In this document: in pieces, positions 9,905 to 12,447 of the stretch | Position numbering within the stretch: position 1 is the first letter of the stretch | Layout: the number at the start of each line of letters is the position of its first letter | Source of the DNA: Campylobacteraceae bacterium | GTDB lineage: Bacteria > Campylobacterota > Campylobacteria > Campylobacterales > Sulfurovaceae | Direction: 5' to 3' | Length of the DNA: 13,444 bases | NCBI GenBank assembly: GCA_027056615.1 | Contig: JALUKJ010000105.1 | Location: 1-13,444 of the forward strand | Program-made: the position numbers and the translations under genes | Notes under the pieces: generated by a model | What the model was told of the DNA's origin: nothing | The model's database searches: none | Seen by the model: only the letters and a program-made list of their open reading frames with translations

Positions 9905-11206
9905 ATGAAAAATAAGAATACTCAAATTGTAACAGAAGATTTAAAGAATATTTGGCACCCTTGTACTCAGATGAAAGACCATGAAACCTTGCCACTTATC
10001 CCTATTAAACGAGCGAAAGGAGTCTATCTATATGATTTCGATGATAAATCTTATATTGATGCTATTAGTTCATGGTGGGTAAATATCTTTGGTCATGTCA
10101 ATGAGCATATCTCTTCTAAAATTAAAGAGCAACTTGATACTTTAGAGCATGTACTTTTAGCAGGATTTACTCATAAACCAGCTGTTAACTTAGCAGAGAA
10201 AATTGTTAACTTAACCCCCAAAGGATTAGATAAAGTATTTTTTGCAGATAATGGTTCAAGTTCTGTAGAGGTAGCATTAAAGATGAGTTTTCATTATCAT
10301 AGAAACAGAGGAGAAAACCGTCCTCTTTTTCTCTCTTTAACAAACTCTTATCATGGTGAAACTATAGGTGCTTTAAGTGTTGGAGATGTAGAACTCTATA
10401 AAGAGACTTATGCTCCACTATTAATCTCTTGCATTCAAACTCCTGTACCAAAAGACCAAAGTAAGCAGAGTGCAAAAGAGGCAATAGTTGATTTAGAGAG
10501 AATTTTAAAAGAGCGTGGAGGTGAAATTTCAGCCTTTATTTTAGAACCACTTGTACAAGGAGCAGGATATATGCACATGTATCATCCTCTCTATATTACT
10601 TTAGCAAAAGAGGTTTGTGAAAAATATGGAGTACATCTTATTGCCGATGAGATTATGACAGGTTTTGGACGAACAGGAACAATGTTTGCTTGTGAACAAG
10701 CTGGTATTACTCCTGATTTTATGACCATCTCAAAAGGGCTTACAGGTGGGTATTTGCCACTTGCTCTAACGGTGACAACATTAGATATTTACAAAGCTTT
10801 TTATTGTGACTACAATGAGTATAAAGCCTTTTTGCACTCACACTCATATACAGGAAATCCATTGGCTTGTACATCTGCACTTGCAACCATAGAGCTTTTT
10901 GAAGCCTCGGATGTGTTAGGTGAAAATAGAAAAAAATCAACCTATATTTTAGAAAAACTAGAGAAGTTTAAAACCTTAAAAAATGTAAAAGAGGTAAGAC
11001 AAACAGGTATGATTTCAGCTATTGAGCTAAAAGGCTATACTCCACAAGAGCGAATTGGTCTTAAAGTTTATGAGTATGGACTAGAGCATGGAGTACTATT
11101 ACGCCCATTAGGTCATATTGTCTACTTTATGCCACCTTATATCATTACTTATGATGAAATAGATAAGATGATAGATACAGCTTATGAGGCGATTGTAAGA
11201 TTGTAG
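9905..11206 (+). CDS. bioA: Adenosylmethionine-8-amino-7-oxononanoate aminotransferase (BioA)
   Basis: A 433-residue PLP enzyme of fold type I, class III. It converts KAPA to DAPA in biotin synthesis with S-adenosylmethionine as the usual amino donor. The BioA-specific start W17-H-P-C-T-Q-M-K-D-H is present, with S-S-W-W-V-N-I-F-G-H (55-64) in the substrate pocket. Other landmarks are F-A-D-N-G-S-S-S (113-120), Y149-H-G-E-T (149-153), D248 in IADEIMTGFGRTG for the PLP nitrogen, Schiff-base K277 in ISKGLTGG, the segment HSHSYTGNPLAC (311-322), and R400 in LLRPLGHIVYFMPPY. Full length with all key residues, cytoplasmic. The gene stands alone on the plus strand. Its last 25 bases overlap the convergent cobB 3' end. 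No other bio gene is in the window. Confidence 0.95.
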   Translation: MKNKNTQIVTEDLKNIWHPCTQMKDHETLPLIPIKRAKGVYLYDFDDKSYIDAISSWWVNIFGHVNEHISSKIKEQLDTLEHVLLAGFTHKPAVNLAEKIVNLTPKGLDKVFFADNGSSSVEVALKMSFHYHRNRGENRPLFLSLTNSYHGETIGALSVGDVELYKETYAPLLISCIQTPVPKDQSKQSAKEAIVDLERILKERGGEISAFILEPLVQGAGYMHMYHPLYITLAKEVCEKYGVHLIADEIMTGFGRTGTMFACEQAGITPDFMTISKGLTGGYLPLALTVTTLDIYKAFYCDYNEYKAFLHSHSYTGNPLACTSALATIELFEASDVLGENRKKSTYILEKLEKFKTLKNVKEVRQTGMISAIELKGYTPQERIGLKVYEYGLEHGVLLRPLGHIVYFMPPYIITYDEIDKMIDTAYEAIVRL

Positions 11207-12447
11207 TTGGCTCTAAACATTGTATGTAAGTAAGTACCAAGTACCTTATCTTTAGTCCAAGAGCTAACATTTCCTTTCCCATTAGGAGTTTTAGAAAGAA
11301 TATTAAACCCTTTCTTTAAACTCTCATCTGTTGGCTTTGTATAGTGAAAAGCATGACCTTTAATTCCTTGTTCATTGTAGTAATACCCTAAACGGTTAAA
11401 TCGTTTATCAAGAGTAAACTCTATATCTAAGATTCCACTCATATTTTTCTCATCAACACCCTTACTAAGGTACAAAAGCCCTGCACACTCTGCATAGATA
11501 GCTTTTGTTTTAGAATGTTCTATAAGTGAGTTTTTAAAATTATTAGAGTTTTTAACTCTCTCATAGGCTTTATCTGTCTCTACATATCCACCACAGATAT
11601 AGACTATATCAGTGTTAGAAGGAATTTTTTCATCTTTGGTTGAGTCTACTATTACTACTTTAGTAAAAAGCTCTTTTAAGAAGTTTATGTTGTCATGGTA
11701 TAAAAAAGAGAAGTTTTTATCTTTTACTATGGCTAGTTTTTTATCTGTTTTTTTTATGGGTGGAAAGGGATATTGTGATTGAGTTTGGTTTTGTTGGTGC
11801 GATGGCAATCGCACCCTACGTAGCTTTTCTAGGTCTATGTGTTCTAAAACCTCTTTACTGATTTGTTCTATTTTAGATAAATCTTTTAAATCTAGTCCTA
11901 AATGGGTGTTACTTAGAGCAGGAAGTTTTTTTTGAATCCACCCTAGTACCACAATATTTGGGTGGTCTTGCTCTATTTGGTTTTTAATTAATTCATAGTG
12001 CATTTTAGAGGAGAGGTTATTTAAAACTATACCCTTAATTGTATTGTCTGGTTTATACTCCAATAGACCTTTAAGTACAGCCGAGATAGTAATATAACTT
12101 CCTCCTCCATCAAGTAGCAAAATAGTAGGAACATTTAGAAGCTTACTTATCGAATAGGCAGAGCAACCTTTATTGTCACCATCATAAAAGCCCATTACTC
12201 CTTCAAGAATATTTACTTGTTTATTACTGTAGTAGTCATAAAGCCACTTTACTTGCTCTTCATTCATAATAAAACTATCTAAATTTACCGAATCAGTCCC
12301 ACAAACTATTTTATGAAACTGTGGGTCGATAAAGTCAGGACCTATTTTAAAAGGTTGCACAGACTCCCTAAAGTACCATAAAAGAGCAGTTGTGAGTATG
12401 GTTTTACCTTGATTTGAAGCAGTAGCAGAGATACAGAGACTTAACAT
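11182..12447 (-). CDS. cobB: Cobyrinate a,c-diamide synthase (CobB/CbiA family) with a translated REP-like insert
   Basis: A 421-residue two-domain enzyme that amidates the a and c side chains of cobyrinic acid with ATP and glutamine. The N-terminal dethiobiotin-synthetase-like domain has the P-loop variant A8-T-A-S-N-Q-G-K15-T16, K-I-G-P-D-F-I-D-P (34-42) and L-E-G-V-M-G-F-Y-D-G (81-90). The C-terminal class-I glutaminase domain has C-G-G-Y (285-288), nucleophile C321 in AECAGLLYLS, H-A-F-H-Y (365-369) and H408 in GTYLHTMF. The interdomain linker (about 207-236) holds codons 211-218 encoded by a REP-like hairpin, followed by a Gln-rich stretch. The start directly abuts the cobJ stop (TAG then ATG, no gap). 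The 3' end overlaps bioA. The length is near normal for the family, so the insert sits in a tolerated, variable region. Confidence 0.92.
   Translation of the reverse strand: MLSLCISATASNQGKTILTTALLWYFRESVQPFKIGPDFIDPQFHKIVCGTDSVNLDSFIMNEEQVKWLYDYYSNKQVNILEGVMGFYDGDNKGCSAYSISKLLNVPTILLLDGGGSYITISAVLKGLLEYKPDNTIKGIVLNNLSSKMHYELIKNQIEQDHPNIVVLGWIQKKLPALSNTHLGLDLKDLSKIEQISKEVLEHIDLEKLRRVRLPSHQQNQTQSQYPFPPIKKTDKKLAIVKDKNFSFLYHDNINFLKELFTKVVIVDSTKDEKIPSNTDIVYICGGYVETDKAYERVKNSNNFKNSLIEHSKTKAIYAECAGLLYLSKGVDEKNMSGILDIEFTLDKRFNRLGYYYNEQGIKGHAFHYTKPTDESLKKGFNILSKTPNGKGNVSSWTKDKVLGTYLHTMFRANYNLTIAS
11796..11819 (-). repeat. REP-like hairpin (copy 2), in frame inside cobB
   Basis: Read on the minus strand: GTAG (11819-11816), then an 8-bp perfect stem GGTGCGAT / ATCGCACC (11815-11808 and 11803-11796) with a 4-nt loop. 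Its head GTAG-GGTG and orientation match copy 1 at 4005-4030, while the inner stem bases differ in a compensated way. It is read through in cobB, giving codons for R-V-R-L-P-S-H-Q (211-218) between the two enzyme domains, with no frame disruption. Its GC-rich arms contrast with the AT-rich coding sequence around it. Confidence 0.6.

Follow-up and report, generated by a model that had tools for sequence, protein, structure and literature searches.

The window, a 13,444-nt stretch of DNA, carries on its minus strand an intact cobB gene, inside which a short hairpin is translated as part of the protein. An aminotransferase gene on the plus strand (9905-11206) overlaps cobB tail to tail by 25 bases (11182-11206). 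The features of cobB are:

11182-12447, minus strand: cobB, cobyrinic acid a,c-diamide synthase, 421 aa, intact (reading frame, Pfam, NCBIfam)
11749-11817, minus strand: interdomain coil, residues 211-233, as predicted by the structure model
11796-11819, minus strand: GTAG REP element, 24 nt, in frame, codons 210-218 of cobB, read in frame +2 as RVRLPSH
11816-11819, minus strand: GTAG tag at the 5' end on the coding strand (sequence; tag as defined in PMC3733652)
11808-11815, minus strand: 5' arm of the stem, GGTGCGAT (sequence and fold)
11804-11807, minus strand: loop, TGCC (sequence and fold)
11796-11803, minus strand: 3' arm of the stem, ATCGCACC (sequence and fold)

A hairpin at the CobB domain joint

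From 11819 to 11796 the minus strand reads GTAG-GGTGCGAT-TGCC-ATCGCACC, a perfect 8-bp stem with a 4-nt loop within a full-length cobB, just as the sequence-only reading had described it. The same reading gave the encoded residues as 211-218; the element is indeed in frame, but it extends from the second base of codon 210 to the first base of codon 218, its full codons spelling RVRLPSH. The 41-nt surround folds as RNA at -13.2 kcal/mol (z -3.2), and the element pattern, allowing up to three mismatches, matches once in the window and never in 200 shuffles. The unpaired GTAG at one stem end, a stem of 5-13 bp and a loop of 2-20, by which Di Nocera, De Gregorio and Rocco 2013 (PMC3733652) delimit the GTAG REP superfamily, are all present. 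Rfam yielded no family at its gathering score, and a sequence search of the PDB returned no chain at E<=0.001.

The protein scores above the NCBIfam CobB cut-off, and Pfam places CbiA at residues 5-173 and GATase_3 at 238-413, the insert lying between the ATP and glutaminase domains as had been proposed. In the structure model (mean pLDDT 90.3), a helix at 206-210 gives way to a coil at 211-233, and a strand starts at 234; block means in the coil are 70 and 76 versus 90.3 overall, and a second dip (77, 70) is seen at residues 171-190. According to this model, the REP residues fall in a predicted flexible linker where the CbiA domain joins GATase_3.

The repeat family and RAYT genes

The source genome, a draft of 2.40 Mb in 467 contigs, holds 36 copies of GTAGGGTGCGA...TCGCACC, every one with the full 8-bp stem, and 45 copies within three mismatches; a reversed-pattern control finds 0. 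The cobB element is a GTAG-type REP, and the further copies on which that identification depended are thus abundant. A chance palindrome, considered as a candidate, is rejected on the strength of 0/200 shuffles and of 45 genome copies versus 0 for the control. Of the 45 sites, 14 are arranged as seven head-to-head pairs separated by 39-51 nt, and no tail-to-tail or head-to-tail pair lies within 150 bp. Exact-stem copies are present in 18 of the 34 genus genomes.

As expected of REPs, the copies in the source genome are mostly extragenic, judged on frames of at least 120 aa plus L023 and L032, two frames without a Pfam match. Among the 45 sites, cobB holds the only deep in-frame copy found in a recognisable gene, the doubtful DUF1016 frame of L015 aside, in a count that takes in L023 and L032 alone from the frames of 60-119 aa. 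Longer frames over REPs were rejected as intragenic cases, their domain and first-Met positions putting the REP upstream of the gene. REPs lie just 5' of likely starts at L022 1032-1055, L016 1501-1524 and L028 1501-1524, ahead of hisIE (PRA-CH/PRA-PH), ribosomal S21 and CDP-alcohol phosphatidyltransferase domains; another falls right at the end of a TPR protein. A further GTAG hairpin, with a GGTGTAGTC stem, adjoins a REP of the cobB-element family at L003, near 150-173.

Across 141 REP sites from nine genomes, a set that does not include the G020 transposase case described below, deep in-frame copies in recognisable genes are those in cobB (seven genomes) and one in a RAYT transposase gene of G033. 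The remaining overlaps with frames of at least 120 aa involve gene ends, a frame's open end without a preceding Met, or doubtful frames. Long open frames end in REPs in G000 (L041 1575-1598), G010 (L185 1501) and G020 (L212 1501).

Y1_Tnp is found in 30 of the 34 genus genomes, and the RAYT of G003 is matched in 25. Y1 transposase genes of 160-174 aa lie next to a cobB-type REP in G003, G020 and G033, all three above the NCBIfam REP_Tyr_transpos cut-off. The REP, or a GGGGCGAT variant of it in which one position is unpaired, flanks the RAYT on both sides in G003 and G020 and lies downstream in G033, where the contig starts just before the gene; in G025, ten REP copies surround a RAYT match containing a stop. 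A cobB-type REP is nearby at only 3 of 49 scanned Y1-transposase loci, and the RAYT link of the cobB REP thus rests on few loci. Other repeated GTAG hairpins, of four kinds, adjoin 5 of 13 distinct transposase loci (L265, L264, L241, L263, L266): GTGTGAC in G001 and G009, GGTGTAGAC in G020, GTTCGAT in G030 and GTTCGGT in G029.

In the source genome no complete cognate RAYT was found. One close piece (67% over 27 residues) sits at a contig edge, with weak matches elsewhere, and the 1500 bases read at this piece contain no cobB-type REP. Contig C224 breaks off within a Y1 piece, which was rejected as a REP_Tyr_transpos member (55.6 versus a cut-off of 80 bits). A full RAYT gene may be hidden by the draft assembly.

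Two RAYT genes themselves contain an in-frame REP with one mismatch: G033 (L229 290-313, VGCDCYHT) and G020 (L240 1097-1120, VGCDCYLT). It is missing from the eight other RAYTs in the alignment, which 10 of 14 named loci entered after filtering; six of the eight are shorter at the site, and L241 and L267 are not. These two cases suggest that a REP is able to lodge even in the gene encoding its own transposase. The RAYT frame of G003 (L169 1281-1304) terminates in the REP-variant residues VGGDCHRTN.

The linker across CobB relatives

A cobB match was obtained in 21 of 60 genomes searched (source included), and the linker could be read in 18, L066 and L067 being without one and L064 left out; in a wider set, 2 of 32 cobB loci have no linker anchor. 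Seven of the 18 linkers carry the cobB-type REP (source included), nine carry no repeat, and those of G001 and G019 contain other hairpins. The carriers, picked by CobB similarity and not by the repeat, form one clade with support of 86/95 in a tree built without the linker and without L064. The cobB of G014 (L056) has an internal TGA stop, and in G019 a REP variant occupies an open frame right before the likely cobB start (L053 1472-1495).

The spacing from LEKL to YPF is 16 residues in carriers (17 in G021, 18 in G006) versus 12-14 in the nine non-carriers and is 20 in the more distant gene L081. The source linker exceeds those of the nine non-carriers by 2-4 codons, and the gap of 8-12 codons that the sequence-only reading predicted for element-free orthologues is not seen; because the non-carriers show no clean gap, later trimming or replacement must be assumed. 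Orthologues that retain the residues and lack base pairing, which were to speak against the element, are represented by one carrier of seven: G006 keeps the REP residues with one A-C stem mismatch and no significant fold, whereas the other six keep the perfect stem. The residues are identical in all seven carriers, as would be expected if RVRLPSH arose by chance or were held by a protein-level constraint with no mobile element involved; set against the 45 genome copies (0 in the control) and a linker that is not conserved outside the clade, this account is extremely improbable.

The two sister cobB genes carry hairpins unrelated to the cobB-type REP. The linker of G001 contains GTAGGGACAACC-CCCTGT-GGTTGTCC in inverted orientation (GTAGGGACAACCCCCTGTGGTTGTCC); a single copy of this repeat, that of cobB, was found in G001, an exact copy in G031 and looser copies in other genus members, for a total of 7 of 34 genus genomes with an exact or looser copy. 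The linker of G019 contains a hairpin repeat of about 50 nt, of which the G019 copy outside cobB folds strongly; its 45-nt core, allowing up to three mismatches, is present in 4 of 8 searched genomes (G019, G032, G000, G020).

Similar turnover is visible in proteins. Among the 120 CobB homologues listed of 897 at E<=1e-100, at least 28 hold the exact frame +2 translation of a known REP variant (RVRLPSH 18, RVRLLSH 2, RVRFPTH 6, RVRFLTH 1, RVRLPTH 1). The REP variants behind these peptides all occur in genus or family genomes; the underlying codons are at hand for the genomes read, and stem pairing elsewhere cannot be judged from peptides. That an RVRFPSH-type peptide betrays a broken stem was considered and dropped, as such a REP would still pair. 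Within the 54-protein tree set described below, the peptide of the G001 type (type B) occurs in five proteins, two exact and three altered, and that of the G019 type (type C) in five, altered in P0033; DNA supports each type in cobB in one genome, the remainder being peptides. P0038 combines RVRFPTH with the G001-type peptide. Several further linkers give the impression of decayed REP peptides (for example, RKIRLPSY in P0030 and RVRLPLH in P0018). A hunt for the DNA of RVRFPTH linkers gave a cobB match in 26 of 175 family genomes, and no REP peptide appeared in the 8 readable linkers among 11 additional loci (L282-L292).

On a tree of 54 CobB proteins built without the linker (the first 60 of the 120 listed homologues minus six near copies), five linker labels need 22 changes, types B and C needing five each. 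A single clade is rejected for B and for C (p-AU 3e-9 and 2e-37), p-values that are weakened because the labels A1, A2, B and C were assigned after viewing the linkers and because P0036 was typed inconsistently, as B in this tree and untyped in one analysis. Types B and C likewise need five changes each on the N-domain, C-domain and joint trees; well-supported branches force two for either type on the N-domain tree, two for C on the C-domain tree, and five for B on the C-domain tree and for both on the joint tree.

These switches could also arise by short-tract recombination of linkers between the cobB genes of related species, in which case a small number of entries per family, perhaps just one, would have been followed by spread as a cassette. 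Three of the five type C linkers share the flank LSLL (P0032, P0033, P0039), consistent with such a cassette, but the left flanks differ among type B rows, and the five changes for each type recur on the N-domain, C-domain and joint trees, albeit with fewer forced by well-supported branches on the N-domain tree and, for type C, on the C-domain tree. We regard linker swapping as doubtful, although it is a real rival explanation for the switches.

Probably tolerated inserts, possibly useful hairpins and known REPs

Among the seven carriers, the 24 nt of the REP show one substitution (in G006; a 3-nt insertion in the G021 REP is excluded from the count) versus a mean of 11.4 per 24-nt cobB window. 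Two of 1176 windows have so low a count, that of the REP and that of the conserved stretch FIDPQFHK; elsewhere in the linker there are 7 changes at 16 sites upstream of the REP and 18 at 23 sites downstream. In the seven REP codons a single synonymous change is seen where amino-acid matched sampling predicts 7.5 (P 0.0017), a separate count being in agreement; every carrier has TGCC as its loop. Non-coding REPs at orthologous sites, a partial set of relatives' REP sites that was chosen by REP pattern and leans towards intact copies, often keep their stems as well, while their flanks diverge and the loop changes at several. Because these non-coding REPs also keep their stems, the conservation is not necessarily specific to cobB and may be a property of REPs in general.

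We posit, as the probable explanation, that a RAYT-type GTAG REP entered a tolerant cobB linker in an open frame and was inherited by at least seven species, and that the linker was re-colonised by at least three unrelated hairpins. A RAYT would have moved the REP, a small non-autonomous mobile hairpin, into the interdomain linker; the frame would have stayed open, so that eight linker residues were passed on in at least seven species. A linker that tolerates many short in-frame sequences could then take up hairpin repeats again and again, from at least three unrelated families, each switch of linker type presumably representing a new insertion. Tolerance, not benefit, would keep the REP in place. 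Against tolerance, the 24 nt of the REP show conservation in excess of what an insert that is simply tolerated should have.

This excess is what would be expected if the hairpin were useful as an mRNA structure between the domains, either (i) slowing the ribosome or (ii) shaping the transcript, with any REP family able to supply it and selection keeping or replacing it. The low number of changes in the 24 nt (one, versus a window mean of 11.4), the shortage of synonymous changes and a perfect stem in six of seven carriers agree with such a role, as does the hairpin nature of the other linker types (shown for G019 by folding its copy outside cobB). Yet non-coding orthologous REPs keep their stems too, one stem pair is lost in G006, half of the readable cobB genes (9 of 18) lack any repeat, and stem pairing in the other linkers is not visible from peptides. 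We consider selection for the hairpin unlikely. Quite unlikely, in our view, is the broader proposal that the CobB linker is a recurrent docking site, where unrelated mobile hairpins replace one another because an mRNA hairpin at a domain boundary is useful, and where parasitic repeats would be recruited as interchangeable translated linkers. Whichever way it is read, the CobB linker is a tractable case of mobile repeats becoming protein, in which a single short linker switches repeatedly among at least three repeat families across many species, and it permits a test of whether inserts are merely tolerated or the hairpin is selected.

The element is of a known kind. The sequence-only reading knew of no description in Campylobacterota, but PMC3733652, which defined the GTAG REPs, counts Sulfurovum sp. 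NBC37-1 among their hosts and already reports intragenic copies in many species, proposing that linkers tolerate them. The intragenic GTAG REPs described there share with the cobB element the GTAG tag, a short perfect stem and a small loop, as well as head-to-head dimers, the link to RAYTs, some translated copies in genes and the suggested linker tolerance. The genes named in the sections of that paper covered here do not include CobB. Different REPs near the same recB site are described there for two Xanthomonas species; the cobB case differs in the three unrelated families at one linker, the multiple switches on the tree and the nucleotide conservation across species. Our literature search found no report of three unrelated families occupying one linker and switching repeatedly.

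Rickettsia palindromic elements (RPE), as presented in PMC3733652, resemble the cobB REP in being palindromic repeats that lie in frame in protein genes. The intragenic RPE-4 and RPE-6 of R. conorii, however, are classed there as CGTC repeats, a type without a dedicated transposase, whereas the cobB element is of the GTAG type and has RAYTs adjoining it in relatives. G003, G020 and G033, in which a Y1 gene lies next to a cobB-type REP, resemble REPtrons and their RAYT transposases (NCBIfam NF047646), but unlike REPtrons, G020 and G033 also have a REP in frame inside the transposase gene. What is new is the presence of the same, highly conserved REP at the same cobB site in seven genomes, the unrelated hairpins in two sister linkers, the repeated changes of linker type and the in-frame REP in the RAYTs of two species.
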